A DNA stretch of 64,000 nt, from positions 19,060,351-19,124,350 of the forward strand of contig OX393552.1 of assembly GCA_947650365.1 (NCBI GenBank). Direction: 5' to 3'. The notes under the pieces were generated by a model. It searched no databases and was not told the origin of the DNA. It worked only from the letters and a program-made list of their open reading frames with translations. Origin of the DNA: Chamaelirium japonicum (Eukaryota; Streptophyta; Magnoliopsida; Liliales; Melanthiaceae). The translations under genes were made by a program, and so were the position numbers. This document shows, one piece after another, positions 2,928 to 51,606 of the stretch (position 1 is the stretch's first letter; each line of letters opens with the position of its first letter).

Positions 2928-3068
2928 TGTTAATGTATATAGATGGGTCGGTTTTACATGTACAGTCGGGTCGGGTTGTATGGTCATACATGTACATATA
3001 TATGGGCTTGAGTTCCTCAATAGAGAGCATTGCATTCCTCTCCAAACCCTAGCCGTCATCTCCTAACA
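2928..3068 (+). repeat. A1 5' LTR
   Basis: 141 bp, TG...CA ends, with the duplication GTATG immediately to its left. It contains a TATA-like tract (ACATATATATGG) about 55 bp before its end, followed by a CTCTCCAAACCCTAGCC block shared by every family member in the window. Confidence 0.92.
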
Positions 3069-3080
3069 TGGTATCAGAGC
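3069..3080 (+). other. A1 primer-binding site
   Basis: TGGTATCAGAGC abuts the LTR. This is the usual plant copia site complementary to the 3' end of initiator methionine tRNA. Confidence 0.85.
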
Positions 3081-3084
3081 TCTA

Positions 3085-8001: not shown

Positions 8002-8014
8002 GTTTGAGGGGGAG

Positions 8015-8155
8015 TGTTAATGTATATAGATGGGTCGGTTTTACATGTACAGTCGGGTCGGGTTGTATGGTCATACATGTACATATATATGGGCTTGAGT
8101 TCCTCAATAGAGAGCATTGCATTCCTCTCCAAACCCTAGCCGTCATCTCCTAACA
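8015..8155 (+). repeat. A1 3' LTR
   Basis: 141 bp, read as identical to 2928-3068, preceded by GAGGGGGAG and followed by the duplicated GTATG. Confidence 0.92.
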
Positions 8156-24900: not shown

Positions 24901-27900
24901 AGGTATGACCATCTCAACATGCTAAAGTCATACAGCCAAACTGGTCGAGTTAGCCGACGGATTTGGTCCAACTAGCTGGGTACTTCAGGCTGGAAACTGG
25001 GTTTTAGTTACAGACCGACCAGACCTGAAGGCGGATTGATCGGAGTGGTATATAAGGCTTGTTAATGTATATAGATGGGTCGGGTTACATGTACAGTCGG
25101 GTCGGGTGGTATGGTCATACATGTACATATATATTGGGCTTGAGTCCCTCAATAAAGAGTATTCCATTCCTCTCCAAACCCTAGCCGTCATCTCCTAATA
25201 TGGTATCAGAGCTCTAGGGTTCTCCTGCGCGGCGACGTCGACGACGGTCTTCCCTCTCCGGCAGCACCTCCCTCCTTCCTTCACCCGATCAGCCACCGGC
25301 CCCCCCTCCTCCACCCCCCGGCCCCCCCTCCTCCACCCCCCGGCCCCCCTTCCGCCGCCCTACAGCCCCCGGCCCCCCCTCCTTCCGCCGCCCCCCCTCC
25401 TCCCGCCCCCGGCCCCCCCTTCCGCCACCCTACAGCCCCCAGCCCCCCCTTCCGCCGCCCCTTCTGCCGCCCGACAGCCCCCGCCCCCCCCCCCCTTCCG
25501 CCGCCCCTTCTGCCGCCCTACAGCCCCCGCCCCCCCCCCCCCCCCCCCTTCCTCCACCCGACAGACCTCCCGCCCCCTATCCTCCACCCGACCGGCCCTC
25601 CCACCCCTTCCCTCAGTCCACCCGCCCCCTTCCCTTCGCCCGATAACCTCTCCCGGTTCCCCTCTTCTGTTGAGCCTCCTCCATGGCTTCTCCTGCCGTG
25701 CCGTCCGTCGTTGCGATCTCTCCACGGCTGAAGGCGGTCGCCTTTCAGCTGTCTTTGGCCAGCGACTGGCCTGATTGGTCACTCACCGTCGAGGCCGCGC
25801 TCTCCAGTCGTGATCTGTGGGATCACATCACCGGCGATGATTGATGCAGGCACCGATAAGGTACACTACAATCCTAAACCCTTTTAGGGTTCCCTTTGGC
25901 CAATAACTAAGATTTAGGGATCAATATAGCGACATATAACTCAAAAGGACAGCAACATTAATTATCTCACGTAGTACTAGAAAGTCTATGCAATCAATAT
26001 AAAACAGGTTTCAGATTTAACAATAAAGATGTACTATTATCACGAAAACTAATTTCAGCATATATAAGATTCAATCGCAGCAGTATATATTAAAACTTGA
26101 AAGGCAGATGTGCATCAGATTTTCACTAAAAATAGGTTAGATATGTTTGCTAGGGTTACCGGCAGACTATAGATAGCAAAACTAGTAAATAGGCATAAGT
26201 TAGGGCTTCAACTAGCGATGGAAAAGGGCGATGATGGCTGCGATGCGGAGCGGAGGCAATGGAAACAAATGAAAACGATACGAATGCGAGGAAAAAATAA
26301 AGAAAAGGAAAGATACTGCCTGGGGTTTCCCGCCGTGGGTCGATTGCAAGGATGCGCCGATAATCCTGCACACGGAGCAAGGCCGGTCGTCGGGAGAAGC
26401 CGGAACCTTCGGAAAATCAACACCGAGGCCTTCAAGAGGCGAAGTCGTGGAAGCGGCGAGGATCGGGGACACGCGTCTCGCCCGGAAGCACTCACGAAGA
26501 GGCACAAATTTCAGCAATTGATCAAAATCTGAAATCTTCTTCTATCTTCCCCTTTTTGTAGAACTAGGGTTTCTTTTTGGATGGCCAAGATCAAAGGGAA
26601 ATAAGGGGGAATGGTGGGGATGCAATGGGCCAAGAAAGGAAAGGAAAAGAGAGAGAAATAAGGGGAAGAAGAGAGAGAGAAGAGGGGACGGAATAGAGGG
26701 CGGATTGGCTCGGTTTTCGCACGAGCAAGGGACGGACAAGCCCTAATTGGAGCCCACATAGCCCTAATTGAAGCCCAATTGATGCCACATCATCAAATTT
26801 AAGTTATTTTGCTATCTAACCGTCAGTTTCGAGACATAATCTTGTCCGTCGGTACCCCACAAACACACGCACCCAGATTTTTATTAATAACATGCAGAAA
26901 CTCACCCGAGAAGACCCGGATTCAATCCGAAAAGCCCTCGGATGAGATCATGGACATCCCCCATGAATTAGGCAAGAACATAACTAATACTAAGTGCAGA
27001 AATTAGGCCAAAAACATAGAAAATAGGCCAAAAACTGAAACAAACGGCTACAAGTTCTCAAATGGATAATGTCTTCCATGCATAAAATAAAATGACTAAA
27101 ATAAAACTCTCTGGCAATGAACTGAAGATGCAGCGATGATCTGATGGTGCTGATCAGGCCTGCATCGATGATCCTCCTCCAGCTGACTACTCCGGTTCCT
27201 CCTCTGTCACCAGCAGTGCCGCGTCTTCTGCTGCGACTGCTACCACGGCAACCACGGTTGCTGCTCTTACGTGGCGCCGCCATGATCAGGCCATCCGGGC
27301 ATACCTTCTGTACTCTGTTGCTTGTCCGCTCCTTGCTCCCATCGGCCGCCTTCCTATAACGCGCGCGATGTGGGAGTATCTCCGGGATCGGTTTCTGCCG
27401 CGCGGCGGCGCATGCCGGCATCAGCTCATCTGTGACTCGCAGTCTGCACGTCAGGGGGAGCGCACCATTCAGGACTCCTTCAGTCAGATGAGTGTATACT
27501 GGCATGAGCTGGACTCACTGATCCCGGAGCGGTGTGCTTGCCCTCGCTCCCGGGATTTCCAACGCTACCTCGATAAGGACCACCTGCACCAGTTCCTGGC
27601 AGCGCTTCGGCCGGACTTTGCTCTCATCGCTGCTCAGCTCCTGCACCGTGAGCCACTCCCTCGGCTAGAGGAAGCTCTACTCGCCTTGGTCGATGAGGAG
27701 ACCCGCCTTCAGACTCAGGGCGCTCGTCCTCCTACACTTGCTCCTAGCTCCGACACTGTCCTGGCGGCCGGGTTCTCCGATGAGGCTGTCTTCTGTCACT
27801 ACTGCAAGGAGCCTGGACACATGAAGCGTGAATGCCCTACACGTCCTCCACGCAACCTCCGCTGGGGTCCGGACGAGAGAGCCACACGCTGGGCGTCGAC

Positions 27901-30900
27901 TTCCCGCGACGATTGACGCGGCGGTCGAGGTAGACGAAGCCGTGGACGTGGTCCGTCCTCCTTCCGCCACTTTGGTGGTACAACGGCCACTGTAGAGGCT
28001 TCGACGCTCCCCACTGCTACCACAGCACCTTCTCAGCCTGAGCCGGACCGTCTTCAGCGCCTCAAGGAGCTCCTTCTTCGCCACCTAGCCTCCACCGGCT
28101 CCGGGACTGCTCACGGCTTGTCTGCCACCTCTGGTACTACTGCTCCATGGATCTTCGATTCGGGTGCCTCCTGTCACCTCACCTTTGACTCCACTGTCCT
28201 CACGGACTGTTCTCCCACGACCACCCACCAGGAGGTTCGCACTGCGGATGAGACTCCTCTCGTTCCTATTCCGCAATGTGGATCCATCACTACCACCTCT
28301 GACCCTTCTGGTCGCCTGACCCTACCCCATGTCCATCATGCCCCCCGTCTTAACATTAATCTAATCTCTATCAGTTCTATTTGTGACTCTGGTCTGACTG
28401 TCACCTTCACCCCTTCTATTTGTGTTGTGCAGGATTCGCGGACGGGTTAGAGGATTGGGCTGGGCCGTAGAGCAGGACTTTACCAGCTGGACCATCTACA
28501 TGTGTCTTCCGTTCCTGTTGCGTCTGTCATGTCTGTCACCTCTGATGCCGACCTGTGGCATAGAAGGTTAGGTCATATATCGAGTGATCGACTCAAAAGC
28601 GTATTCCGTTCGGACGCTTTGGGTCGAGCGTCTTTCTCCCCCCTCTCTGTTTGTACGGGTTGCAGCCTGGCAAAGCACCTAGCTCTTCCATTCTCTACTA
28701 GTGCTTCCCAGTCTGATGCTTTATTTGATTTAGTCCATTCGGACATTTGGGGTCCTGCTCCTGTTGCATCTATTTCGGGTTACATGTATTATGTGTGCTT
28801 TATCGATGACTATTCTAGATGCACCTGGGTTTATCTTATGCATCATCGATCTGAAGTACCTCACATCTTTAGGAGATTCACCACTATGATACACACTCAG
28901 TTTGGTCGGCGCATCAAGACCTTTCGGTCTGATTGTGCCAAGGAGTATCTCTCCTCTGAGATGCGTAAGATTCTTCAGTCTCACGGCACTCTTCACCAGC
29001 AGTTCTGTCCCCACACCCATGAGCAGAACGGCGTTGCCGAACGCAAGCATCGTCATGTCCTTGAGACTGCACGAGCCTTGCTTCTCTCTGCGTCTGTTCC
29101 TCACTCCTACTGGGCTGAAGCTGTCATGACGGCTGTCCACCTCATCAATATCACTCCGTCATCTGCTCTGTCCGGTGCCACCCCATATGAGCGCCTCCAC
29201 TCTAGCCCACCTGACTACTCTCTTCTTCGCACGTTTGGTTGCACGTGCTTCGTTCTTCTTCCTCCCCATGAGCGCACCAAACTCTCTGCGAGGTCTGTTA
29301 GGTGTGTTCACTTGGGGCTCAGTCGGGAGCACAAGGGGTATCGGTGCTACGATCCCTTGGCTCGTCGAATCCGTGTCTCCCGTCATGTTTCCTTTGTTGA
29401 GGATGTCATGTACTTCTCACCTGAGTCTCGGGATCTTTCCTTGCCTCCTGCGTCACCCTCCTCGCCTTTCTCACATCTCCACATCCCCGTTTTACCCCCG
29501 TTTTCTGTTGTCCCATCCACGCCTACTCCTTCTCCATCTTCCCCGCCACCTCCACCACCACCATCACCACCGCCACCACCTCCTCCTCTTCCTCGACACC
29601 TCCACCACCACCTGTTACTCGTGTCTATGTTCGTCGGTCTGCAGCTCCTCCTCCAGAGTCGGTTCACACTGGTACTCCCTCGCCTGATGCTGCTGCCCCC
29701 TCCTCCCCGGTCGTGGATCCTGCTCCTGTTCAGCGCTATCCAGCGCGCGAACATCACCCTCCTGACAGATATGACTACTCTCCTGACAGATTTGGCTACT
29801 CTATCTTTTCCTCTGACTCTCCTGACTCCTCTGGCTACTCTGTCAGTGCCTCCTATTCACCATCTTTTCAGGCTTTTCTTACTGCTATACACACCCATCG
29901 GGAGCCCCAATTGTACCGTGAGGCAGCTTTACTTCCAGAGTGGCGGCATGCCATGTCAGTTGAGCTTGAGGCTTTTCAGCGGACCCAGACATAGGATTTG
30001 GTGCCTTGTCCCTCAGGTGTGGTGCCTGTTAGCTGCAAGTGGATATTCAAGGTCAAGACTCGACCTGACGGATCCATTAAGCGGCACAAGGCTCGCCTCG
30101 TTGCTCGTGGCTTCTTCCAGAAGTATGGGTTTGATTACGAGGAGACGTTTGCTCCAGTTGCTCGGATGACTACTGTGCGCACCCTCTTAGCTGTGGCAGC
30201 TGCTCGAGGGTGGCCTCTCCATCAGATGGATGTCACCAATGCGTTCCTCCACGGTGATCTCTTCGAGGAAGTCTACATGGCTCCTCCTCCGGGCGTTTCA
30301 GTTCCTCCAGGGCACGTGTGTCGTTTGCGCCGAGCCATCTATGGGCTCAAGCAGGCCCCTCGTGCCTAGTTTGAGCGATTCCGCAGCGCAGTCCTGGCCG
30401 CCGAGTTTGTTGAGCGTCACTCCGACTATGCCCTGTTCACTCGCTCCTCCAGTCAGGGTATTGCAGTTCTTCTTCTCTATGTGGATGATATGATCATAAC
30501 TGGGGATGACAGTGTCACCATAGCATCCCTTCAGCGGCACCTCCAGAGTCAATTTGAGATGAAAGATCTGGGCTCTCTTCGCTACTTTTTGGGCCTTGAG
30601 ATTGCCCGGTCCGCTCGTGGTCTGTTGGTCTCCCAGCAAAAGTACATCTCCGACATCTTTGCTGATGCTGCTCTTACTGACTCTCGCACTGCTGATACAC
30701 CCATGGAGCTCAATTTGAAGCTTCTAACTATAGATGGTGAGCCGCTCCAGGATGTCTCCCGCTACCAGAGGCTGGTTGGGATTCTCGTCTATCTCACTAT
30801 GACCCGGCCAAACATTGCCCATGCTGTTGGCATTGTCAGTCAGTTTGTTCAGGCTCCACGTTCAGTTCACTATGCAGCTGTCCTTCGGATTATCCGCTAC

Positions 30901-33900
30901 CTCCGGGGCACCATCACCCGTTCACTACTGTTTTCCTCCACCTCCCCGTTGGTGCTGCGTGCCTACTCCGATGCAGATTGGGTAGGAGATGCAGCCACTC
31001 GCCGCTCTACTACAGGATACTGCGTGTTTCTGGGTGATTCGCTTATTTCGTGGCGTAGCAAGAAACAGGAGTCTGTTGCTCGCTCCCGCACCGAAGCCGA
31101 ATACAGGGCTATGGCTTCCACCACCGCAGAGATTGTCTGACTTCGCCGCCTTCTGCTCGACTTGGGAGTTGTGATATCCGGGCCCACGCCTCTCTTCTGT
31201 GACAACCGGAGTGCTATTCAAATTGCTAGCAACCCGGTCTTTCATGAGCGAACAAAACATATTGAGGTTGATTGTCATTATGTTCGCCAGGAGTTTCTCG
31301 ACCACACCATCTCCTTGCCATTCATTTCATCATCGGAGCAGACTGCAGATTTTCTGACGAAGCCCTTTACGATTGCTCGCTTCCGGCACTTTATCGGCAA
31401 ACTCTCGGTTCATGATCCACCGTGAGTTTGAGGGGGAGTGTTAATGTATATAGATGGGTCGGGTTACATGTACAGTCGGGTCGGGTTGTATGGTCATACA
31501 TGTACATATATATTGGGCTTGAGTCCCTCAATAGAGAGTATTCCATTCCTCTCCAAACCCTAGCCGTCATCTCCTAACAAGGCTATTACAGATTTTTGGG
31601 TGTCCCAAGCAGCGGGTCGGACATACTCCCTATGGATCAATCCGGATAATTAATGAGTTGTTATATATGTTGTTTCCAGACTGGTCAGCCTCTTTGATTG
31701 GATCAGTAAGACCAAGAGTCAGAATAAAACACGGGCTGACTCAATCATAGATCAGTCGACCATTTATGGTTAGATCAGTCAGATTCTGCATATTGATGAA
31801 GGATTATAAATTCCTGAGCCTGACTGATCCGATGATATAGCCGGAACGATCCGCCATCGTATTTCTGCATAATCCTATTTTATTATGATTTTGACTCTGC
31901 CTTTCTAATCCGGTACATTTAGGGTTTCTTTGGAGCTATGAATGGCCATGATTTCTGCCTGAATTTGCTAAGACTTGGTACTTAATTTTGAGAGGTTTTT
32001 GTAGCCTTAGTCTGCTTCGTGAAGAGATTTGTTAAGGTTTTCCATGGTTTTCATATAGAAAATCCCTAGGAACCTTATTCACCATTAACAACCACTTAAC
32101 TTAGGTTTAAGTTCTTTTGAGTAGAGGAATTCGAACTGAAGAGAAGTTCATGGAAAATACTGGCTGGTTATTGGGACCTCCTGAGTAGAGAAGACAGGTC
32201 ATGTGTCGAATTCGTGTTGTACATAGAAATCAAGACCAGAGAAGTTCGGTTCCTTGTGCTGGAAGTGCTGGAGACTGCTTTCAACAGACGACAGAAGCAA
32301 TAAGATAGAGTTGGTTATGAGGTAACATTGTCGAGTTAACACTCATAAATATCAATGATAAAGTGAAGAATCCTGAACTTGGTCATGTGGACATAGTTTT
32401 CTACGTCGAACCAAACCACACAAATCTCATTCTCTTCTATGATGCGTATTATCTGCATCATGCTTATTCTGATGATATGAGATTGGCTCCACACATACAT
32501 TTTGATGCACTGATATTATCTCTGATAAATATCAAAATGCTTAGATCTAAAATTAATTAGCATCTTTTTGAGTTAGACCTATTCAACAATCTGTACCATA
32601 GGATACTTGTGAGTTTGTACATGTCTATTGACTGGTATTAGGCCTAACAACTGGTATCAGAGCATGTTGTCTTACTATTCAGGTTTTAATAGATTTGTCT
32701 ACTCACTTGCCCAAGTATTAGTAGGAATTATGTGACAGAGAAAGAAAGTAGATTTCTTGATTATAATAAGACAACGGAAGTGTTACGAAGAGAGAGGGGG
32801 AGAGAGACTAGGGTTTGGGGAGAAAACTCATTGTATTATCTCTTTGTATATACCATTACATAAGACTACCTCTCCTTATATAGAGAGAGAACACACACCA
32901 TTACAATACCACAACTAAGGTGAGACTAATAGTAACTCTACATCTAATACCCCCCGTCAAACTGATGTAAGGTATAAACCGACATCAGTTTGCTTAATAA
33001 AAGAAAAGAAAAAAAAATTACATCAAATATCCCATTTTTATGCTGTAGAGTAAAGATATACCAGGGAGACCTGCAAGCAAGTCGTCCTGAAAACCCGATT
33101 GACCTGCAAGTAGAACAACCGGGGGAACCCGGCCAACCTGTAAGTAGGTAAACCGGGGTAATTGGCAATGATCACTAAGGATCGGAGCAGAGGAAGTCGA
33201 CGATGATGGAAACCGGCAATAAAGGAGGCTGAAAGGGGAGAAATCGGCTAAGAAAAAAAGGTTTGGATGCGTGAGACCTCATAAGAGGCAAGCACTCGGC
33301 CGAAGCAAGCACTTGACACCTCCTAGAAGATTTCAATCGCCACAAACGAAGAAAAGAAAATAGATAGGGTCACATGACTAAGGAAAGGGAGAAAATCCGA
33401 AAGCCGGCACAAGTGTACTCGGAAAGAGTGATGATCTGAAGGCCGGCACAAGTGTTACCGGAGAGAGGATCCGAGAGAAAAATAGATCTGTAACTCTGAT
33501 AGGGTCGCACAAGCGGGAATAGACGATCCAAGAGTCGGCACAAGTGTGACCGGATAGAGGAGATCCGAGAGCCCGTGCGGCCAGAAAGAAAGAGGATAAG
33601 ACGACGTCCAAAGAAAGAGATGCCAGAGGGAGAGAAGCTCGATCGGAAGGAGGGAGAAGATCTCGATCGGCAAGAGAAGAATATCGGACGAACCGGTAGA
33701 GCACAAGGGCGTAGATCGGCTGGCAGAGCACAAAGCGCATATAGGCCGACAGAGTGCATGGCGTAGGCAAGCCGGTAGAGCGCAAGGCGGAAGGCGCAGG
33801 TGGAGCGGTAAAATGCAAAGTGCAGAGCATGAATGCAGGTGCTGGCGGACCGGTAAAGCACAGGGCGCAGGGCACTAGTGCAGGCGCAGGCGGACCGGTA

Positions 33901-41500: not shown

Positions 41501-44500
41501 TAGTCTCATCTTTTGATGTAATAGCTGGCTGTGGGGCTGCTAAACTCTACACTGCTCTCGCCCTTCAAACAATATCTCGGCAATTCCGCTGCCTACGAGA
41601 TGCCATCAGCAATCAGATTCGATCTGCCCGAAACAACCTTGGAGCGCAAGACAGTTCAACTAGCAAAGGAGGCGCAATAACTCCCGTCCGTCATATAGAC
41701 CAGCATCTAAGGCAAAAGATCGCTATACAGCAGCTTGGGATGTTTCAACAACATGTTTGGAGGCCACAAAGGGGGTTGCCTGAAACTTCCGTTTCAGTTC
41801 TTCGTGCTTGGCTATTCGAGCATTTCCTTCATCCGTAATACCCTTAAGTACCTTGATCTTTTCTCAATATTTTGATGACCTATCGATGTATTCTTCAACC
41901 GGAGTGTTTGATGTGTACTGTTTTTCACCAGTTACCCGAGCGAATCTGAGAAATTACTGCTGGCAAGACAGGCTGGATTGACAAGAAGTCAGGTATGCTC
42001 TTCGTTCATTTTATTTTTCATCAAATGATTTGGAGATTTAGTACCAAAAAGAAAATGAAGATTTTATATGCAATAGAATGAGTAGTATGCCTCACGAGTA
42101 ATCTTAAGATTTGGACAACACATTCAGCATTAAACAAGGTCTAAAAATAGTTCATCCTAGTTGAGCTGTTTGTCCCACGTTGGCTTGGGGTGGGACACTG
42201 GGAGTCCCGTGTCTTCATATATCCGTTACCCCCTACCCCTCATGACCAGTTTTGAGGGGGCACGTGATTCGTGACTTGGTATCAGAGCTAGGCCCCACTC
42301 TGTCTGTCCTGAGTGGCTCCATCATACCCCTATTTCTCCCTGAGTAAATGCGTTTCCACATGCGGGTAGGTCCCCGTTGAAACGCGCTCTACATTCACAT
42401 GACAAGGTGGGTGAATATCTTTTTCTATCAAGAGGGGTCTTTGCCATTCTCCCTGTTAATGTATATAACGGGTCGGGTTCTATATACAATCGGGTCGGAT
42501 TCTATGTGTATACATGTACTTATATATTGGGCTTTAGTCCCTCAATGAGAATCATTCCATTCTCTCCAAACCCTAGCAGTCATCTCCTAACATGGTATCA
42601 GAGCTCTAGGGTTTTCTCGTGTGATGACGGCCACGACGGCAGCCACCTCCGGTCTCCCCCTCCACCCGGCAGCCTTCCTCCGTCTGCCCCTTCACCCGGC
42701 AGCCCCCCTCCGACCTCCCCGCCTCTCCACTCAGCCCGCCCGGCTCCCCCCGCACCTCTCCTCCGCCCGACCTGCCCCCCCCCCCCCCCCCCCGCACCTC
42801 TCCCCTCCGCCCGTCCGCGCCCCCCTGTACCTCTCCTCCCCCCGCCCGGCCCCCCCGCACCTCCCCGCCTCTCCCCTCCGCCCGTCCGCCCCCCCCATAC
42901 CTCTCCTCCCCCCGCCCGGCCCCCCCGCACCTCCCCGCCGCTCCCCCCGCACCTCCCCGCCGCCCGCCCTGCCCCCCCCACACCTCCCCGCCTCTCCCCT
43001 CCGCCCGTCCGCCCACCCCCCCGCCCGTCCGCTCCCCCCGCCCGGCCCCCCCGCACCTCCCCAACCGCTCCCCGTCCACCTGCCCGGCCTCCTCGCCCGA
43101 CCCCTCGCCTTTGCTCGCCCTCCCCCCCCCCTCCCCCCCCCCAAGCCCTCCCGACCCCTCCCTCCGCCCGATAGGCTCCCCTAGGCCCCCCCGGCACCTC
43201 TCCTCCCTCCGATCAACCCTCCCGACCCCTCCCTCCGCCCGACAGGCCCCCTCCCTCCACCCCGCAGGCCCCCCTTTACCATCCCCTGCACCCCCGCCCC
43301 CTCCTGCACCCCCTGAAGCCCCACCGCCCCCCCTTCTCCTCTGTACCGAACAGCCCGTCTCCTCTGTACGGACTGCCTTAGACCTCCCTTGTGCCGGCTC
43401 GCCCCCGTACTTCAGGGGTATGGCTTCCTACAGCCTCTCTCGGCTCTCATACTGCCTGCACACAGTCGCTGCTCGTTGAGTCCCTCCGTCTCCTCGTTTT
43501 GATGGTATTCTCGGGCCATATCCCTCCACCACTTCAGTCGACTGTGGACGTCGTCAGGATCCCCTCCGCCATGATGGCGAGACTGCTGCTGCTGCTGATC
43601 TCCCTACTCCAGCACCGCCTGCCACCACTCCTGCTCCGTCTCGGTCTTACTCCGACCGCCTCTAGCGCTTTGAGGAGTTATTGTTGCGATACCTTGCCTC
43701 CACCAGCTCTTCGACAGATCACAGTCTCTCTGCCACTCCGGGTACTTCTGCTCAGTCTCGGTCTTACTCCGACCGCCTCCAGCGCTTTGAGGAGTTACTG
43801 TTTCGATACCTCGCCTCCACCAGCTCTTCGACAGCTCACAGTCTCTCTGCCACTCCGGGTACTACTGCTCCATGGATCTTCGACTCGGGTGCCTCCTGCC
43901 ACCTTACCTCCGATCCATCACCCCTGCCTCAGATCCCACTGGTCGCCTAACCTTACCTCGTGTTCACGTTGCTCCCCGCTTAAACATTAACTTAATATCT
44001 GTTAGATCTCTTTGTGACTCGGGCCTGATCGTTACATTTACTTCTTCTTCTTGTTCTGTGCAGGATCCGCGGACGGGTCAGAGAGTTGGGCTGGGTCGTC
44101 GAGCAGGGGGACTATATCAGTTGGATCACCTTCAGGTTCCCACTTCCACTCCGTCGGCTCTGTCTGTTACCTCTGATGCCGATTTGTGGCACAGAAGGTT
44201 AGGTCACATATCCAGTGATCGACTTCAAAGCGTTTTTCGCTCTGGCGCTTTGGGTCGGGTGTCCTTCTCCCCTCTTTCTATCTGCACTGGGTGTCGATTA
44301 GCAAAGCACCTTGCTCTTCCTTTTTCTACTAGTGTTTTCCGTTCCAGTGCCCCTTTTGATCTCGTGCACTCTGACGTGTGGGGTCCTGCTCCAGTTGCCT
44401 CTTTTACTGGTTTTTTGTATTATGTGAGCTTCATAGATGATTACTCCCGCTGCACCTGGGTCTATCTCATGCGTCGCCGCTCCGAGATTCCTCATATTTA

Positions 44501-47500
44501 CAGGACCTTCACTACTATGCTTCATACCCAGTTTGGTCGACGCATTAAGACTTTTCGGTCTAATTGTGCCCAGGAGTATTTCTCCTCTGAGATGCGCAAG
44601 ATCCTTCAGACTCACGGCACTCTTCACCAACAATCGTGTCCCCACACCCATGAACAAAACGGAGTCGCCGAGCGCAAACATCGACATGTCCTCGAGACAG
44701 CACGAGCTCTACTTCTGTCTGCTTCTGTTCCACATTCCTACTGGGCTGAAGCTGTCCTGACTGCTGTTCACCTCATCAACATCACTCCGTCCTTATCCTT
44801 CTCTGGTGTTTTCCCGTACGAGCGGCTTTACTCCACATCTCCTGACTACTCTCTCCTTCCTCCCCATGAGCGCACGTGTTTCGTCCTCCTTCCTCTCCAT
44901 GAGCGCACCAAACTCTCTGCTAGGTCTGTTAGGTGTGTTCACTTAGGACTCAGTCGGGAGCACAAGGGCTATCGGTGTTACGATCCCTTGGCTCGTCGTA
45001 TCCGTGTCTCTCGCCACGTCTCCTTTGTAGAGGATGTCCCGTACTTTTCCACTGAGTCCTGGGATCTTCCTTCACCACTTATGTCATCTTCTACGTCGTC
45101 ACCCCCTCTCAACATCCCCTTCCTACCTCCGTATCCTGCTCCTACGCCTACCTTCCCGGTTGAGCCTCCTCCACCACCTCCACCTCCACCTCCACCTCCA
45201 CCTCCCTCGTCTCCACCACCTCCCCCGCCACCTCCCTCTCCCCCGTCACCTCCACCACCACCACCTATTACTCGTGTCTATGTTCGTCGGTCTGCAGCTC
45301 CTCCTCCAGAGTCGGTTCACACTGGTACTCCCTCGCCTGATGCTGTTGCTCCCTCCTCACTGGTCGTGGATCCTGCTCCTGTTCGGCGCTACCCGGCGCG
45401 CGAACATCACCCTCCTGATAGATATGACTACTCTCCGGACAGGTTTAGCTAGTCTGCCTTTACCTCTGACTCTCCTGACTCCTCTGGCTACTCTGCCATT
45501 GCCTCCTATTCTCCAGCTTATCAGGCTTTTCTTACCGCACTTTATACCCACCGGGAGCCCCAGTCATACCGTGAGGCAGCTTTACACCCAGAGTGGCGAC
45601 ATGCCATGTCAGTAGAGCTTGAGGCTTTTCAGCGGACCCAGACATGGGATTTGGTGCCTTGTCCCTCAGGCGTGGTGCCTGTTAGCTGCAAGTGGATCTT
45701 CAAGGTCAAGACTCACCCTGATGGATCCATTGAGCGACACAAGACCCGCCTCGTTGCTCGTGGCTTCTCCCAGGAGTATGGGATTGATTATGAGGAGACG
45801 TTTGCTCCAGTTGCTCGGATGACTACTGTGCGCACCCTCTTAGCTGTGGCAGCTGTTCGAGGGTGGCCTCTCCATCAGATGGATGTCACCAATGCGTTCC
45901 TTCACGGTGACCTCTCCGAGGAAGTATATATGGCTCCTCCTCCAGGCATTTCAGTTCCTCCAAGGCACGTTTGTCGTTTACGCCGTGCTATCTATGGGCT
46001 CAAACAAGCACCTCAGGCATGGTTTGAGCATTTCCGCAGTGCAGTTCTGGCAGCTGGGTTTGTCGAGAGATACTCTGACTACGCTATGTTCACCCGCTCC
46101 TCCAATCAGGGTATTACTGTACTACTTCTGTATGTGGATGATATGATCATCACCGGGGATGACAGTGCTACCATAGCTTCCCTTCAGCGTCACCTTCAGA
46201 GCCAGTTTGAGATGAAGGATCTAGGCCCTCTCCGGTACTTTCTTGGCCTTGAAATTGCCCGGTCAGCTCGAGGATTGTTGATCTCCCAGCAGAAGTACAT
46301 CTCTAATATTTTTACCGAGGCTGCTCTTATGACTCTCGTACTGCTGACACGTCTATGGAGCTCAACTTGAAGCTCCTCTCTACCGATGGTGAGCCTCTCC
46401 AGGATATCTCTCGTTATCAGCGGCTGGTTGGGATGCTCGTTTATCTCACCATGACGAGGCCTGACATTGCCCATGCCGTTGGTATTGTCAGTCAGTTTGT
46501 TCAGTCTCCTCGCTCGGTTCATTATGCAGCAGTCCTTCGGATTATTCGGTATCTCCGTGGCACTATCACTCGATCGTTGTTGTTTCCCTCCACATCTCCA
46601 CTGGTTCTGCGTGCTTACTCTGATGCAGATTGGGCTGGAGATATTGCTACTCGTCGATCCACCACCGGCTACTGCGTGTTCCTTGGTGATTCCCTCATTT
46701 CTTGGCGCAGCAAGAAACAGGAGTCTGTTGCACGCTCCAGCACCGAAGCTGAATACCGAGCTATGGCTTCCACCACTGCAGAGATTGTCTGGCTTCGACG
46801 TCTTCTACTCGACTTGGGAGTTAGGATTTCTGGTGCTACACCTCTATTCTGTGACAACCGGAGTGCCATTCAAATTGCTAGCAATCCGGTTTTTCATGAG
46901 CGGATCAAACACATCGAGGTCGACTGTCATGATGTTCAGCAGGAGTTTCTTGTCAACTTCATCTCCCTGCCGTTCATTCCCTCGACAGAGCAGACTGCTG
47001 ATTTTCTCACCAAGCCCCTGATGATTGCTAGATTTCGTCATTTTATAAGCAAACTCTCGGTACATGATCCGCCGTGAGTTTGAGGGGGAGTGTTAATGTA
47101 TATACCGGGTCGGGTTCTATGTACAGTCGGGTCGGGTTCTATGTGTATACATGTACTTATATATTGGGCTTTAGTCCCTCAATGAGAACCATTCCATTCT
47201 CTCCAAACCCTAGCCGTCATCTCCTAACACTCCCCTTGTGTTATATTTGAAATGCAAAGATGATGGCTCTGTTTACCTGATGATGGTGATCAATTATTCC
47301 TGAACACTGGATATCCAACATAGTTTTTTATGGTTATACTCTTAGATTCCCATAGGTGAAATGCCCTTGCTAAGAGTCAAAACCCTATTCACCATCATAT
47401 AATCATCCAAGTTTTATCCCGTTAAGATAGGGTTGGCTATAGAGCACAGTTCTGACTAAGAAGGTTCCACAAAATGCGAACAAAATTCTCAACCCACTGT

Positions 47501-50500
47501 CAACCTGATGTCAACCCTCAATGATTTGTGCCAAAAACCTAACCAAGGTAACTTGGCAAGGGAGAGGCTTGCCAAGAAACCTAGAATATAAGGTGGCGAG
47601 TGGACACCCACCTTATTGCTTATGCAGTTTAAGCTCTTGCAACTAGGGAGCAACTCTCCAAGGTTGACTAGGGCTGAAATTGAGAAGAGTGCCACCTTAT
47701 TGCTTATACAGTTTAAGCTCTTGGACCATTTTTTTTTATAAATCTTACAATCTACCTAGGGTTCCTTGGAATCTACCAAGGAGATATACCTAGAAGGCTA
47801 GAATCCACCAGGGCTCTTGGAATCCACCAAAAAATAGCCGAGAAAAGTTTCTAGTTTTTATCATCATGAAAACGGATTAACAAAAGAGAGTTAGGAGCCT
47901 TTAAATATGCAACAAACCCCTAAGATTACCAGGATTAAGATTCCTAATCCTAATAGGACAAGCAGCTTATAAATGATCGATATGTCCTAAAGAAATACCT
48001 AAATGAAGAACACGTCTCGCGGGACTAAAATCAAACAAAATAAATCCAAAAGTTTTGCTATGAAATACATGTAAAATAGTTTTCTCCGATGACTGTGTGC
48101 GCATATCTAGCTCAGCATCAGAGTCATTTACCCTACCTACATCAGAGGTTTACTTAGACGATGAAAGATCATAGACGAAGATTGTGGCAAAGTCATTAAA
48201 TGCGTTATATGTATATTATAGTCCCACTCATATGAAGAGTTGGCTGCATATCATTCTTGTAATGGGGTTTGAAGAGATTTTATTATGCTCATTGCCCCAA
48301 ATTTCTCTAGGATCAAAAAGGCAAAAGTGGGATGGGGTCTTTACACCAGCCCAAGGTGATCATCAGATAGGGTTGTAAATGGGCCCAGTCCATCCCGAGG
48401 CCCATTGGGTCGGGCCCAATTTGGACCCAAGTTGGGCCAAGTTAACTTGAGATTTGGACTGTGCTGGGCTGGGCTCGATAGTTCAAGCCCGGATTTGTTA
48501 TGGACTGGGTATGGACAACCTCTATCCTGACCCGAAGCCCGGACTATTTTTTTAATTATATCGATGAGTATAGTATTTGACATACATGTTCTTTTCAAAC
48601 AATGCCTATAGTTTAGAAGCATCATTTCACAATTCACATGAATCATTTTGATACTTATCATACATAAGCAATGTTTTCTCCCATTTGTTGTGTGAACAAG
48701 AGAAATAAGAAGTTTTCGGCACACACCAGGTTAGAAGTTCGAGCTTAATTTGGGCTTGGGCTTCATAAATGTTAACAGATGGCCCCACTTCGGTAAGGGA
48801 GGCACCCATCACCCGCTTAATATACCCGTTGTGGACCTCCCCTTAAAACCCGGATTTTGAGGTGTGAGGGTATCTAACATGGTATCAGAGCTCTAGGGTT
48901 TTTCCGCGGTGAAGGCGACTCCTCCGGCATCTCCTCCTCCAGCACCGGCCTCCTCCTCCTCCGGCCGTCCCCTACTGCACCCCACCCGGCCTACACCTCC
49001 TCCGGCCTTCCGGCAGCTCCTCCCGCCCCGACAGCCCCTCCAACAATCCGACAGCCCCTCCAGCCCCCTCTTGCACCCGATTCCCCCCTCCGGCAGCCCT
49101 TCCAGCACCCGATTCTCCCCTCCGGCAGCCCCCTCCTGCACCCTATTCCCTTCTTACCCGCACCGGCAGCCCCTCCAGCCCCCTCCTGCACCGATTCCTC
49201 CCTTCGGCAGCCCCTCCAGCACCCTCCTGCACTCGATTCTCTCCTTTAACAGTCCCTCCAGCACTCCGGCAGCCTCGCCGCCCCCTCCTGCACCTTCTGA
49301 AGCCCCCCTACACCTCCTGAAGCCCCCGCCGCCCCCCTCCTGCACCTCCTGCAACCCCCACCGCCCCTCCTGCACCCCCTGAAGCCCCCGCCGCCCCTCC
49401 TACACCTCCTGCAACACTCACCACCTCCTCCTGCACATCCTGAAGCCCTGCCACCCCCTCCTGCCCCCCCTGCAACCCACGCCGTCCCCTTCTGCACCCC
49501 CTGCCACCCCCCATCGCCCCACCACAGTCCTCCCTCTCCTGGCCCTCCTCCTCCCACCACAACCCCCCCCCCCCTCGGCCTTCTCTTCACCGTAGTCCCC
49601 CCCTGTGCCGGCTTCTCCCCCGGCCTCCTCCTCCCGCCACAGCCCCCTCCCCCCTCCTGACTTTCTCTTCCACCACAGGTCCCCCCTCCGGCCCATCTTC
49701 TCTGTACCGGACTGCCAAGGACCTCCCTTGTGCCGGCTCGCCCCCGTACTTCAGGGGTATAGCTTCCTACAGCATCTCTCGTCTCCCGTACTGCCTGCAC
49801 ACAATAGCTGATTGTCGAGTCCCTCCGTCTCCTTGTTTTGATGGTATTCTCGGGCCACGTCAGTCGACTATGGACGTCGTCAGGGTCCCCTCCGCCATAA
49901 TGGCGGGACTGCTGCTGCCGCTGATCTCCCTACTCCAGCACCACCTGTCACTACTCCTGCTCAGTCTCGGTCTTACTCCGACCGCCTCCAGCGCTTTGAG
50001 GAGTTACTGTTTCGATACCTCGCCTCCACCAGCTCTTCGACAGATCACAGTCTCTCTGCCACTCCGGGTAGTACTGATCCATGGATCTTCGACTCGGGTG
50101 CCTCTTGCACCTTACCTCCGATCCTTCTGTACTCACGGACTGTAGCCCTGCTTCCACCCACCTGGGGATCCACACTGCTGACGGGACTCGTGTACCCATT
50201 TCGCAGTGTGGATCCATTACCCCTGTCTCCGATCCCACTGGTCGCCTAACCTTACCACTTGTTCACCTTGCTCCCCGCTTAAACATTAACTCCATTCTCT
50301 CCAAACCCTAGCCGTCATCTCCTAACATGGTATCAGAGCTAGCCCGTCTCCTGCTCCTGCTCCCGCTCCGGATGCTCCCCACCGATAGTGCCTTGCCATG
50401 TGTTCTCTGCGTGGGAGGATCATTGCCACGTGTGCTCTGCGTGAGGGGGGATGTTAACGGATGGTCCCACATCGGTAAGGGAGGCACCCATCACCCTCTT

Positions 50501-51606
50501 AATATACCCGTTGTGGACCTCCCCTTAAAACCCGGGTTTTGAGGTGTGAGGGTATCTAACAATATAAATAGTTTTCGGTGGCCATGCTCGAAATATTTCA
50601 GTCTGGGAGTTCACTAATATGCAGATCCATGAAAGTTTTAAATCCATGCTTACCAATCGGATCAATAGGTATCAAATTTAGCTCGAAATGTATCTAAATA
50701 TTTCAGTCTGGGAGTTCACTAATATGCATGTTTTCGGTCAGTTTCGGGCCAGATTTGGGCCAAGTTCGAAATATTTCAGTCTGGGAGTTCACTAATATGC
50801 TCGAAATGTATTAAATCCATGTTTTCGGTCAGTTTCGGGCAAGACTCGGGCCAAGTTCGAAATATTTCAATCTGGGAGTTCACTAATATGCAGATCCATG
50901 AAAGTTTTAAATCCATGCTTGCCAATCAGATCAAAAGGTATTAAAAAAATAGCTCGAAATGTTTTTCTTTTAACTTCGATCTGTCTTCCAGATTTCGAAC
51001 TGGTTCATAAACGCACGTGTTCGTCTTTGGAAGCCGATGATTGAGAAGATTTATAAAGAAGAGGTCGGTGACACCGAGATGGACTCTAATTCTTCCTCAG
51101 AAAATGCGGCCAAGAGCAGGGACGAGATCAGATCCTCCAAGGAAATGCAAGACATGCAGAGCTATGCAACCGAAAGATGCCACATAAGGCATTTGATGGA
51201 ATCTTCTAATCCCAATAATCACATCTCCAACGCAGGCACGAGCCCGCGAGCTGCTGACTTTCTGAACGATGCGAGCCCGCGGGATGCCTACATGAATCTC
51301 AAGTCAAAGGACCAAAGAACAGATGTGGATGACTACAACCTTCTTCGCGAAGCTCTCACCAACTCTGATGGCAGTTCGAGGTTTATGACATGTCCTATAG
51401 CGGAGTCGGGGAGTTACGGGCACAGTGAGATTTCTCTTACTCTGGGTCTGCAGCATTGCAACTCTGGGCTCGCAGTGAGAGGGGAAGGCATGTTCAGCGT
51501 AGCTGAACGTCCCCTCGGGTCCGATGTAGCATACGACTGCATGAATGTAGCCGATCAGCGGCACAGGTTTGGATCATCTCATCAGCTTCATGATTTTGTG
51601 GATTGA
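9028..51606 (+). CDS. BLH1-like: BEL1-like homeodomain protein (BLH1-like), 4 coding exons
   Basis: This is a nuclear TALE-class transcription factor; BELL proteins pair with KNOX proteins and bind TGAC-type sites. Exons 9028-9966, 41458-41834, 41932-41992 and 50992-51606 join at GT/AG sites into 1992 nt (663 residues) with no stop. Residues about 158-166 hold the GLSLSLS motif. SKYLKAAQQ at 227 opens the SKY/BELL (POX) domain, which continues in exon 2 ([29 protein letters not shown]). The homeodomain is about 416-478, with GLPE, the TALE loop HFLHPYP and the recognition helix [11 protein letters not shown]. The ZIBEL motif ISLTLGL is near 606, and the C-terminus [14 protein letters not shown] is typical of the BLH1 clade. 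The 61-nt third exon and all intron positions are canonical. The ATG at 9028 was chosen because the frame opens upstream only at a GTG (8989). The gene looks intact. The unusual part is the element-filled introns of 31.5 and 9.0 kb. Confidence 0.93.
10033..10906 (+). other. Unique-looking intron sequence
   Basis: AT-rich, without long frames, repeats or recognisable element ends. It probably represents original intron 1 sequence before the insertion of copia B at 10907. Confidence 0.5.
10907..11085 (+). repeat. B 5' LTR
   Basis: 179 bp, TG...CA ends, ATCTA on its left. It contains a CT-microsatellite tract near its end. Confidence 0.92.
11086..11097 (+). other. B primer-binding site
   Basis: TGGTATCAGAGC, directly after the LTR; initiator methionine tRNA type. 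Confidence 0.85.
11098..11676 (+). repeat. B leader with GATC-rich and CGCG-rich short repeats
   Basis: An untranslated leader of repeated GATCTGATCC and CTCGCGATCCGCC-like words, composition-biased and open on the minus strand in several frames. I see no coding evidence. Confidence 0.65.
11677..16012 (+). pseudogene. B gag-pol, copia order
   Basis: Parts in order: gag (about 11730-12330); zinc knuckle [14 protein letters not shown] (about 12428-12470); protease with DSGAS (about 12709); GAG-pre-integrase LWHRRLG (about 13110); integrase core with DYSRYTW (about 13360) and the [13 protein letters not shown] block (about 13570-13610); Ser/Pro-rich spacer (about 14000-14350); RT (about 14540-15200) with [10 protein letters not shown] and YVDDM; RNase H with DADWAGD (about 15555) and EAEYRAM; and the terminal HDPP block near 16000. 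Broken, with about three breaks. Confidence 0.87.
16019..17237 (-). repeat. C LTR, left (3' in element sense)
   Basis: 1219 bp, pairs with 19904-21123. It contains a GA-microsatellite around 16795-16870 and the palindromic ends TGATGC/GCATCA. Confidence 0.9.
17400..19680 (-). pseudogene. C gag and protease-like region
   Basis: On the minus strand: an N-terminal gag with a glutamine-rich start ([15 protein letters not shown], about 19630); the retrotransposon gag domain ([16 protein letters not shown], about 19390-19330; then [11 protein letters not shown], about 19050); zinc knuckle [14 protein letters not shown] (about 18770-18730); and an aspartic-protease fold with DGG rather than the usual DSG (about 18450), followed by ILGRPWQFD (about 18220). 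A C-terminal stretch of about 250 residues follows (about 18150-17400) in which I recognise no domain. No RT or integrase motif was found. Confidence 0.8.
19904..21123 (-). repeat. C LTR, right (5' in element sense)
   Basis: 1220 bp, about 99 percent identical to 16019-17237 by eye; GTTTG follows at 21124-21128. Confidence 0.9.
21137..21311 (+). repeat. B 3' LTR
   Basis: 175 bp, preceded by a G-rich polypurine tract and followed by the ATCTA duplication. Confidence 0.92.
21317..21918 (+). other. Intron 1 sequence without recognisable elements
   Basis: AT-rich, no long frames. Probably intron sequence or an unrecognised old repeat. Confidence 0.4.
21958..22135. repeat. GGATACGGCCC minisatellite
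   Basis: About ten imperfect copies of an 11-bp word (GGATACGGCCC, GGATACGGCTC, GGATACGGGAG) in the left arm of the Mutator-like element. Confidence 0.75.
22183..22223. repeat. AAACCC hexamer tract
   Basis: About six tandem AAACCC units with one variant. It resembles, but is not, the plant telomere repeat CCCTAAA. Confidence 0.6.
22331..23495 (-). mobile_element. 5'-truncated LINE (L1-like), RT zinc-binding end
   Basis: Inserted on the minus strand with a 12-A tail (T-run at 22331-22342) and a perfect 17-bp duplication (ACAAATGCCCCCCTCTA) at 22314-22330 and 23496-23512. It encodes the C-terminal end of a plant LINE ORF2: [22 protein letters not shown] near 23410, then the zf-RVT zinc-binding region with [18 protein letters not shown] at about 22780-22730. 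Two overlapping frames (22992-23471 and 22415-23005) are needed to cover it, so it has at least one frameshift. The endonuclease and polymerase parts are missing because of 5' truncation. The intact duplication suggests a moderately recent insertion. Confidence 0.88.
23680..24609 (+). other. Intron 1 sequence without recognisable elements
   Basis: AT-rich with T-runs (for example 24508-24518). No coding signal or element ends seen. Confidence 0.4.
24615..24919 (-). mobile_element. TRIM (terminal-repeat retrotransposon in miniature)
   Basis: 305 bp flanked by an exact TGCTA duplication (24610-24614, 24920-24924). On the minus strand the 5' LTR is 24919-24778 (TGTTGAGATGG...TTAACA), followed directly by TGGTATCAGAGC (24777-24766) and about 40 bp of interior, then the 3' LTR 24723-24615 (TGTTGAGAATAG...GTAACA). 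The LTRs (142 and 109 bp) share their ends and several blocks but are clearly different variants. No coding capacity, as usual for TRIMs. Confidence 0.85.
25060..25200 (+). repeat. F 5' LTR
   Basis: 141 bp; AGGCT on its left, primer-binding site on its right. Confidence 0.92.
25213..25680 (+). repeat. C-rich leader of F
   Basis: Runs of C (up to about 17) and CTTCCGCCGCCC words, as in A1. Confidence 0.7.
25683..31425 (+). pseudogene. F gag-pol, copia order
   Basis: Parts: start of gag (25683-25841) and its continuation after the solo LTR (about 27170-27720); zinc knuckle [14 protein letters not shown] (about 27793-27835); protease DSGAS (about 28157); GAG-pre-integrase LWHRRLGH (about 28553); integrase with DYSRCTW (about 28808) and [13 protein letters not shown] (about 29020); Ser/Pro-rich spacer; RT (about 29950-30620) with YVDDM; RNase H DADW (about 30970) and EAEYRAM; terminal HDPP near 31420. 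Broken, with several breaks. Confidence 0.87.
25842..27167. mobile_element. Solo LTR of a gypsy-type element inside F
   Basis: A 1326-bp insert begins TGATGCAGG and ends CCTGCATCG, with ATGAT on both sides (25837-25841, 27168-27172). The uninterrupted relative A1 reads straight through at the matching gag position. The ends resemble those of element C, and short blocks such as TTTCAGCATATATA are shared, so it may be a related family. There is no internal coding region, as expected after LTR-LTR recombination. Confidence 0.8.
31439..31579 (+). repeat. F 3' LTR
   Basis: 141 bp, preceded by GAGGGGGAG and followed by AGGCT. Confidence 0.92.
31585..32775 (+). other. Probable old long-LTR retroelement remnant
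   Basis: TGGTATCAGAGC at 32652-32663 follows a CCTAACAAC end, as expected at an LTR/primer-binding-site junction. The upstream sequence (to about 24925, interrupted by F) could be a long LTR and the A-rich downstream pieces (32664-32775, 35389-35598, 38917-39066) its interior. No coding domain was recognised. Weak evidence. Confidence 0.3.
32958..32992 (-). other. H1 hairpin next to the polypurine tract
   Basis: Perfect 11-bp inverted repeat CAAACTGATGT / ACATCAGTTTG with a 13-nt loop, a few bases inside the polypurine tract. It is kept in H2 at 35775-35809. Confidence 0.8.
33740..34470 (-). repeat. H1 tandem array I (GCGCAGGGCACAAGTGCAGG-like)
   Basis: Variable units of GCAGGGCACAAGTGCAGGCGCAGGCGGACCGG type. 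33929-34060 contains a nearly exact tandem pair of about 66 bp. Overlapping long minus-strand frames here reflect the low stop density of the array. Confidence 0.75.
34600..35065 (-). repeat. H1 tandem array II (GGGCTGCAGGAGGGGCCGGC-like)
   Basis: Units of about 30-65 bp built on GCTGCAGGAGG and GGCCGGCGAAAGACCGGCAGG. The same array type is in H2 at about 37265-37800. Confidence 0.75.
35133..35165 (-). other. H1 hairpin downstream of the primer-binding site
   Basis: CCTCCCCGA pairs with TCGGGGAGG (9 bp), extended inward by TCGC/GCGA after a 2-nt bulge, about 40 nt from the primer-binding site in element sense. A counterpart lies in H2 at about 38659-38697. Confidence 0.65.
35775..35809 (-). 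other. H2 hairpin next to the polypurine tract
   Basis: The same perfect 11-bp arms and 13-nt loop as H1 32958-32992. Confidence 0.8.
36370..37110 (-). repeat. H2 tandem array I
   Basis: Degenerate GCAAGGC/GGACCGGTAGAGCGCA units like H1 array I, in a different order and number. Confidence 0.65.
37265..37800 (-). repeat. H2 tandem array II
   Basis: GGGCTGCAGGAGGGGCCGGCGAAAG-like units, homologous to H1 array II. Confidence 0.7.
38079..38654. mobile_element. hAT MITE with CTAGGCGG arrays
   Basis: 576 bp flanked by an exact 8-bp duplication GCCCGGCC (38071-38078, 38655-38662). The inverted ends read CAGTGTTCTAAAAAGCG on the left and CAAGGTTCTAAAAAGCG on the right complement. An 8-bp duplication with CA(G/A)-type ends fits the hAT superfamily. 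The arms hold many CTAGGCGG/CCGCCTAGG words and the centre an (AT)n tract near 38489-38515. No transposase; depends on an autonomous hAT. Confidence 0.85.
38659..38697 (-). other. H2 hairpin downstream of the primer-binding site
   Basis: GGTCGCC pairs with GGCGACC around a GGC loop, and GGCCTCC with GGAGGCC outside it. Same place as the H1 hairpin, with a partly different sequence. Confidence 0.6.
38917..41457 (+). other. Intron 1, last part: degraded sequence
   Basis: No intact element. 39067-39078 (complement of TGGTATGAGAGA) next to TGTTGATAAT at 39079 may be a decayed minus-strand LTR junction. A (GT)n/(GC)n tract lies at about 40105-40135. 40990-41040 contains GCCCCATCTATTTGGGGCCGGC, a word resembling the end of Au-type plant SINEs. 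41441-41457 is the pyrimidine-rich tract and acceptor of exon 2. Confidence 0.4.
41458..41834 (+). CDS. BLH1-like: BLH exon 2
   Basis: The acceptor is CCCTTTCAG|GTT and the donor ATCC|GTAATA. The exon is 377 nt. It starts [11 protein letters not shown] and runs through the second half of the BELL domain ([19 protein letters not shown]) to [21 protein letters not shown], the first helix and loop of the homeodomain. The last proline codon is split with exon 3. Confidence 0.94.
41835..41931 (+). other. BLH intron 2 (97 bp)
   Basis: GTAATA...TTTTTCACCAG, phase 2, inside the homeodomain after HFLHP. It is the only intron of the three free of insertions. Confidence 0.92.
41932..41992 (+). CDS. BLH1-like: BLH exon 3 (61 nt)
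   Basis: The acceptor is TTTTTCACCAG and the donor AGTCAG|GTATGC. It completes the split proline codon and encodes [20 protein letters not shown], homeodomain helix 2. The 61-nt length is the usual one for this exon in BELL genes, and it restores the frame. Confidence 0.94.
42160..42300 (+). mobile_element. TRIM-like 5' LTR fragment
   Basis: TTGAGCTGTTTGTCCCACG... to a junction with TGGTATCAGAGC (42277-42288) and AGGCCCCACTC, matching the layout of the TRIM at 24615-24919. No second LTR found, so it is a partial copy. Confidence 0.6.
42454..42592 (+). repeat. E 5' LTR
   Basis: 139 bp, TGTTAATG...CTCCTAACA, CTCCC on its left. Confidence 0.92.
42640..43340 (+). repeat. C-rich leader of E
   Basis: Long C runs with CCGCCCG, CACCTCTCC and CACCTCCCCG words; open frames in several registers on both strands are composition artefacts. 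Confidence 0.7.
43590..43870 (+). repeat. Short duplicated block before the E protease
   Basis: A segment of about 120 bp (CGGTCTTACTCCGACCGCCTC ... GCCACTCCGGGTACT) occurs twice in tandem. One copy of the same block is in chimera D at about 49960-50070. Confidence 0.75.
43860..47077 (+). pseudogene. E protease-integrase-RT-RNase H
   Basis: Parts: protease with the DSGAS site (about 43888); GAG-pre-integrase LWHRRLGH (about 44185); integrase core with DYSRCTW (about 44440) and [13 protein letters not shown] (about 44650); Pro-rich spacer (about 45150-45270); RT (about 45600-46280) with [10 protein letters not shown] and YVDDM; RNase H with DADWAGD (about 46622) and EAEYRAM; terminal HDPP block ending at 47077. 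Broken, with a few breaks. Confidence 0.87.
47091..47229 (+). repeat. E 3' LTR
   Basis: 139 bp, preceded by GAGGGGGAG, followed by CTCCC. Confidence 0.92.
47235..48764 (+). other. Intron 3 sequence between E and D
   Basis: Mostly featureless. A 32-bp direct repeat (CCACCTTATTGCTTAT...CTCTTG) lies at about 47608-47639 and 47692-47723. 48363-48540 is rich in GGGCCCAA words and may be one arm of an old DNA element; no second end was found. Confidence 0.4.
48770..48879 (+). repeat. D 5' LTR (TRIM-like)
   Basis: 110 bp, TGTTAACAGATGG...ATCTAACA, followed directly by the primer-binding site 48880-48891. Confidence 0.85.
50452..50561 (+). repeat. D 3' LTR (TRIM-like)
   Basis: 110 bp, five differences from 48770-48879. 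Confidence 0.85.
50591..50891 (+). repeat. Four copies of a 32-bp intron repeat upstream of exon 4
   Basis: AAATATTTCAGTCTGGGAGT... units start at about 50591, 50696, 50769 and 50860, separated by shared blocks (GTTTTCGGTCAGTTTCGGGC, CATGAAAGTTTTAAATCCATG). The array ends about 100 bp before the exon 4 acceptor. Confidence 0.85.
50992..51606 (+). CDS. BLH1-like: BLH exon 4
   Basis: The acceptor is CTGTCTTCCAG|ATTTCG. 204 codons and TGA at 51604-51606. It opens with the recognition helix [15 protein letters not shown] (most relatives have V, not I, at the first position), then the acidic [17 protein letters not shown] block, an unstructured tail, the ZIBEL motif and the conserved C-terminus. 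Confidence 0.94.

Follow-up and report, generated by a model that had tools for sequence, protein, structure and literature searches.

Recombination between an autonomous element and a non-autonomous one, or between related elements, has precedents: LTR swapping in soybean was reportedly described by Du and colleagues in 2010, and BARE2 and VejuL are cited by Sabot and Schulman (2007, PMC1950507). The latter authors themselves described three-LTR complexes that are flanked by target-site duplications (TSDs) and stem from template switching within a family. Such complexes were very few in each genome, with 2 cases in about 7 Mb of Triticeae sequence and one each in rice and maize. Tandem TRIMs, which are common (Gao et al. 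2016, PMC4717578) and for which template switching is given as one origin (Kalendar et al. 2020, PMC7215508), have the layout LTR-interior-LTR-interior-LTR with TSDs in those parts of the two papers on which we draw. From the same portion of PMC4717578 comes the rice element OsajLTRA10, a copia of 8.5 kb whose LTRs are those of the TRIM OsajRetroS10 (408 bp, LTR 115 bp); the two break apart near nucleotide 130, where a 25-bp 'duplicated internal sequence' includes TGGTATCAGAGCC. OsajRetroS10 was read by its authors as a deletion derivative of OsajLTRA10, and no inner LTR is mentioned in that portion. In wheat, RLG_Wilma with RLG_Sabrina/RLG_WHAM (PMC9744471) exemplifies autonomous and non-autonomous partners that are alike in little but LTR tips and PBS; these are Gypsy elements, and the sections of that paper used here describe no PBS-joined chimeras.

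The chimeras described here come from Chamaelirium japonicum (assembly GCA_947650365.1, contig OX393552.1, positions 19,060,351-19,124,350 of the forward strand; this whole stretch of 64,000 nt that was analysed is called the window), and the genome searched was the 1.52-Gb assembly containing the window. We denote the TRIM LTR by T, the TRIM interior by X, the copia LTR by L and the copia leader-to-protease interior by I. In the chimeras, as in the complexes of PMC1950507, one insertion between TSDs holds three LTRs and two interiors, the outer LTRs resemble each other, and reverse transcription of two RNAs is the proposed source; however, those complexes unite close relatives of one family, with a switch placed in R and chimeric LTRs, whereas here two families without LTR similarity are joined, with a switch at the PBS, an unmixed inner LTR, about 400 junctions in one genome and both reciprocal orders. 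Tandem TRIMs, as described in the passages cited, repeat one element, whereas here TRIM and copia modules alternate. Complex elements formed by template switching are thus already known; new are the switching at the PBS, the unrelated LTR families and the hundreds of junctions. Among the papers searched, no title or abstract opening described PBS-joined TRIM-copia chimeras in both orders.

The window element and its parent families

The window element (48770-50561, 1792 bp) has the structure T-PBS-I-L-PBS-X-T, with the following features:

48765..48769, + strand: 5' flank ATAAA, candidate TSD (1 mismatch against the 3' flank)
48770..48879, + strand: 5' TRIM LTR (T), TGTTAAC...CTAACA
48880..48891, + strand: first PBS, TGGTATCAGAGC; junction J1 (T / copia leader)
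48892..50050, + strand: copia leader and C-rich gag-side region
50051..50286, + strand: copia protease-start block, with a DSGAS-type motif (by eye) and a sub-threshold Pol_BBD Pfam match only
50287..50291, + strand: TAACT microhomology at the break, with pol and the greater part of the copia LTR missing
50287..50327, + strand: inner copia LTR (L), 3' remnant of ~41 bp with the end CTAACA
50328..50339, + strand: second PBS, TGGTATCAGAGC; junction J2 (L / TRIM interior)
50340..50451, + strand: native TRIM interior X, with terminal polypurine tract GAGGGGGGA at 50443-50451
50452..50561, + strand: 3' TRIM LTR (T)
50562..50566, + strand: 3' flank ATATA

The initial annotation of this locus, which recognized TRIM-type LTRs around a copia-family interior, together with a PBS, a polypurine tract and LTRs 4.5 percent apart, holds in these respects: the two T copies are 110 bp each, have TG...CA ends and differ by 5 substitutions (95.5% identity), the polypurine tract lies directly before the 3' T, and the interior matches copia sequences both in the window (43353-43992, in three pieces at 88-96%) and in the genome (top copia match 89% over 1245 query bases). 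No gag domain was matched in Pfam at E 0.01 on the leader side (48892-50050) in the frames tried. The second junction, which had been placed at about 50440, actually lies at the second PBS, followed by native TRIM interior. The embedded LTR end with its second PBS is present, but the copia LTR is reduced to its last ~41 bp, and the supposed match of the outer LTRs to the TRIM family at 24778-24919 is a distant relationship only (74% over 95 bp, 7 junction copies in the genome).

The copia block breaks off in the protease region and restarts in the LTR end, with TAACT as a microhomology of 5 bp; the sequence at this join is ...AAACATTAACTTAATATC and ...GATAACTCCATTCTC in native copies and ...AAACATTAACTCCATTCTC in the window copy. 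A microhomology-joined deletion, either later or in the same cycle, removed pol and the greater part of the inner LTR from the window copy. The flanks ATAAA and ATATA agree at 4 of 5 bases and, given the one difference, the window copy by itself is not proof of a single insertion. With 1792 bp and a copia interior, the element itself does not fit the definition of a TRIM; it belongs, as a decayed copy with an internal deletion, to a recurrent class of chimeras in which TRIM and copia are joined at the PBS. Just 3' of it, window 50580-50962 contains repeat units of 'gaaatatttcagtctgggagttcactaatatgc'.

The parent family of T and X is a TRIM, as seen at locus L070 (T-PBS-X-T, 344 bp, TSD GATTA), and the partner family is a Ty1-copia, with integrase upstream of RVT_2 and a 5-bp TSD (window 42454-47229). 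Native copies of the partner family in the window include the following:

42454..47229, + strand: L-PBS-I-pol-L, TSD CTCCC; gag_pre-integrs, rve, then RVT_2
25060..31579, + strand: native copy, TSD AGGCT
2928..8155, + strand: native copy, TSD GTATG

Several further repeats were recorded along with these families. At G000:C5:22595434-22596849, a tandem TRIM array packs seven exact T-PBS-X junctions, all on one strand and mostly at 210-216 bp spacing, into 1.4 kb. At both window 24777 (minus strand) and window 42277, TAGGCCCCAC directly follows the PBS; the LTR that ends at 24777 is of a rare TRIM-like family, for which the genome has 7 junctions. The TRIM-like family U, with 7 native junctions and 0 with a copia leader, is too rare to inform. 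Window 61916-63929 carries local tandem duplications of ~95-295 bp that are 75-88% alike.

Junctions, layouts and target-site duplications

The genome was searched at up to 3 mismatches for the patterns J1 (T-PBS-copia leader) and J2 (L-PBS-X), which represent PBS junctions only, joins at other positions lying outside the reach of the search. There were 197 J1 and 198 J2 matches, and the junctions are not a product of chance because the reversed patterns used as controls gave 0 for each. The corresponding native junctions number 1341 for the TRIM (T-PBS-X) and 2959 for the copia family (L-PBS-copia leader). From 100 listed of the 197 J1 and 100 listed of the 198 J2 matches, 30 loci each were mapped by module, one J1 and one J2 locus among them being the window element itself. 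Automatic classification of the 30 J1 loci gave 14 with a whole T and neither L nor X upstream, 12 with X upstream and 4 unclear; among the 30 J2 loci, 18 continued with T and then a PBS or T, 7 had pol, a polypurine tract or a truncation ahead of L-X-T and unique sequence, 4 consisted of L-X-T between unique sequences, and 1 lacked T. Locus L039 has T outside by eye, contrary to its automatic class.

Two reciprocal layouts emerged, T-PBS-I-(pol)-L-PBS-X-T and L-PBS-X-T-PBS-I-(pol)-L. For the former, nine loci with both junctions were read to both ends; these were picked without regard to TSDs but are a non-random set, eight having both junctions listed nearby on one strand and one coming from the fetching of 3' ends. 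Such predicted 3' ends were fetched for three loci and contained an element end in one, with none for L012 and L036 (L090, L092). The T-outside loci are:

C1:125.96M: TSD GATGC exact; inner L down to its last ~15 bases
C5:46.77M: TSD AAAAG exact; inner L whole
C5:66.92M: TSD CTTCT exact; inner L partly read
C2:78.11M: TSD ATTAA exact; inner L whole
Window element: TSD with one mismatch (ATAAA/ATATA); inner L down to its last 41 bases
C1:43.39M: TSD with one mismatch; inner L down to its last 38 bases
C4:65.37M: TSD with one mismatch; inner L whole
C1:94.93M: flanks with 2 differences; inner L whole
C8:26.53M: flanks with 4 differences; inner L partly read

The TSD is thus exact at four of the nine, has one mismatch at three (window element included) and is absent at two, whereas mispaired flanks of the same loci gave 0 exact and 4 one-mismatch agreements in 72 pairings. 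A whole inner L was seen at only four of the nine loci; at three it is cut to its last bases, which indicates that pol was lost up to the LTR end more than once. The layout with L outside has an exact TSD at all three loci with both ends complete:

C12:10.58M: TSD GAAAT; ~4.9 kb by end coordinates and extending through copia pol; 97% identity of the L pair
C4:70.51M: TSD GGACC; L pair identical
C8:32.50M: TSD GTTAC; L pair identical

The last two insertions are recent, as their L pairs are identical.

Of the TSDs at all 18 chimera loci, 11 are exact, 4 differ at one base and 3 at more than one, whereas 306 mispaired flanks gave 0 exact and 10 one-mismatch agreements; however, six of the 18 (L033, L052, L046, L061, L034 and L055) were first noticed by a TSD scan (275 end pairs, 13 exact, including native elements and repeats of one insertion), so that the nine-locus figure is the fair one. 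Where outer T pairs were compared, each T had its own partner as best or tied match in 8 of 11 pairs (0.955 versus 0.927 for the window element), the exceptions being C8:26.53M, C4:65.37M and C5:12.70M.

Some loci depart from the two main layouts. Capture of the leader only, T-leader-X-T, was seen at L034 and L035 (796 and 787 bp), which lie 52 kb apart with the same flanks and the same TSD, CCCTC, and probably represent one insertion that was later duplicated; they are counted once. A rearranged chimera at L055 (C11:5.36M, TSD GGCCA) runs from bases 1-39 of T through a piece of pol in inverted orientation and then forward pol to L-X-T (304-1374), and was kept apart from the T-outside set, having no T-PBS-leader junction. 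At L049, L050, L064 and L068, L-X or L-X-T passes into protease or pol within a few bases, skipping the leader; these are internally deleted chimeras with differing break points. L-X-T-T, with T LTRs abutting without a PBS as in a two-LTR circle junction, is found at L023 (1295-1514) and L066 (1616-1836, minus strand). L057 and L058, on contigs C47 and C57 of under 2 Mb each, share an L-X-T insertion with the same flanks and are perhaps haplotype duplicates in the assembly.

Origin of the chimeras

We consider repeated PBS strand jumps between co-packaged TRIM and copia RNAs, followed by ordinary integration, to be the best explanation of these elements, with a probability of roughly 0.75. One particle would package both the TRIM RNA and the L-copia RNA; the minus strand would reach the PBS of one RNA, switch to the PBS of the other and copy the U5 and R of the new RNA, after which the normal R-to-R transfer, copying of the remainder, plus-strand synthesis and integration would proceed as usual. 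A start on the TRIM RNA would produce T-PBS-I-pol-L-PBS-X-T, the window layout, and a start on the copia RNA would produce L-PBS-X-T-PBS-I-pol-L. We infer this order of jumps from the established course of LTR-retroelement reverse transcription; co-packaging of the RNAs and mobilisation of the TRIM by copia proteins are presumed. The switch is placed at the PBS because a switch in R would leave a U3/U5 hybrid LTR and the inner LTRs are unmixed: those that were fully read align end to end with L or T alone. The position can be resolved only to the 19 bases shared by both families, CTAACATGGTATCAGAGCT, so recombination of finished cDNAs there could be responsible as well. Against the best explanation stand the two T-outside loci without a TSD, the window TSD that is off by one base, and the three T-outside loci at which just the last bases of the inner L remain.

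The initial annotation had considered that the chimera was probably reverse transcribed and inserted and had proposed a search for more copies with the same junctions and independent TSDs; such copies were retrieved and support this view, with insertion as a unit. Its suggestion that a TRIM took up a copia leader describes L034 and L035 adequately but does not hold as the main route: the layout unites, at the PBS, a copia module (PBS-interior-LTR) with a TRIM module (PBS-X-T), and the reciprocal layout with copia LTRs outside is found too.

An unlikely alternative, but the most serious one, is that plus-strand strong-stop DNA moves to the minus strand of the other element at the PBS, yielding L-PBS-X-T and T-PBS-I-pol-L, and that recombination through shared LTRs before integration then generates the three-LTR forms. 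Bare L-PBS-X-T does occur at four loci, with exact TSDs at L046 (GGATA) and L061 (GATAT), one mismatch at L059 and none at L054; however, the three-LTR forms require an additional recombination step, and the two-LTR counterpart T-PBS-I-pol-L was absent among the loci read, few of which included 3' ends.

It is improbable that a single chimera formed once and was then amplified as an ordinary family, with both layouts arising as one or the other LTR pair of a tandem element is used. Among 57 L sequences placed in a tree (36 from L-PBS-X and 21 from native L-PBS-I, the latter chosen partly for similarity to the window), chimeric and native L are interleaved, with 13 label changes, at least 5 of them forced by strongly supported branches; a single clade of chimeric L is rejected (p-AU 9e-108), and one chimeric L (L030) is identical to one native L (L077). 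The L sequences therefore largely refute a single founder. There are signs of amplification nonetheless: the labels are more clustered in the tree than when shuffled (12 of 500 shuffles as low), near-identical chimeras occupy sites with different flanks (L033, L060 and L066), and L and T distances among 36 L-X-T units are correlated (Mantel r 0.34, a value reached in 0 of 2000 permutations, with the near-duplicates L057 and L058 kept in), which indicates that part of the junction count comes from amplification of existing chimeras. The chimeras have thus arisen more than once and have also multiplied as such.

Quite improbable is a true family with a composite LTR, L-PBS-X-T, at each end. L-X-T standing alone with an exact TSD at two loci resembles a solo LTR, and near-identical L-X-T units are found in 5' (L043) and 3' (L048) position, but the 3' end is L alone at all three L-outside loci with both ends, and no L or X module precedes the 5' T in the stretch examined at any of the nine T-outside loci. 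Homologous recombination at the PBS between neighbouring genomic TRIM and copia insertions could draw on the 19-base stretch common to both at the junction, yet it is very improbable, as it would lose the matching TSDs that the T-outside loci display well above the mispaired level and hundreds of junctions fall at one same point. A copia nested in a TRIM, or two overlapping insertions, is hardly credible: only the mismatch between the flanks of the window copy speaks for it, none of the nine T-outside loci has a copia LTR between T and the leader, and the joins sit at the PBS.

Partner specificity and the mobilisation of TRIMs

Apart from the TGTTAA start, the CTAACA end, the PBS and the polypurine tract, which are common to the TRIM and the copia family, the one T and the one L that were compared resemble each other in their inner parts no more than shuffled sequence does (328 of 500 shuffles scored as well); the junction patterns cover the shared 19-base stretch. 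Two further families in the window carry the same PBS. The first has 101 native junctions, 1 T junction (up to 3 mismatches) and 0 junctions with L; the second has 452 native junctions (up to 2 mismatches), with T junctions numbering 0 at 0-1 mismatches and 12, all unclear, at exactly 2. A single T-PBS junction with the leader of the window-38742 (minus strand) family, with one mismatch, lies at G000:C6:28909973-28910008. Identity of the PBS by itself may be insufficient for switching, and the low T-junction counts in the other families favour selective co-packaging of the TRIM with its partner copia, although the specificity may come in part from the shorter shared homology in those families (15 and 17 versus 19 bases, by eye).

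The initial annotation had suggested that the chimera could explain how TRIMs exploit copia particles. At best, the chimeras would indicate that both RNAs were copied together, and leaderless TRIMs are far commoner (1341 junctions versus 197 with the copia leader). In the portion of their paper used here (PMC4717578), Gao et al. failed to find a related coding element for 278 of 289 TRIM subfamilies. PBS-joined chimeras are a sequence-only record of co-copied RNAs and indicate the helper even if its LTRs bear no similarity to those of the TRIM; here, the partner copia family is likely to be the helper of the TRIM.

From the chimeras follow, in addition, a testable interpretation of published 'autonomous TRIM' elements and a way in which copia genes could come under the control of a TRIM promoter. 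OsajLTRA10, so far as its published description goes, resembles the expectation for T-PBS-copia-LTRend-PBS-X-T, and by this analogy its reading as a TRIM ancestor may need review. We suggest, tentatively and at less than even odds, that PBS-to-PBS jumping between TRIM and helper is a standing pathway that makes autonomous-size elements with TRIM LTRs; rare plant 'autonomous TRIM ancestors' such as rice OsajLTRA10 would then be products rather than ancestors, and PBS-junction chimeras would name the helper of a TRIM in any genome.
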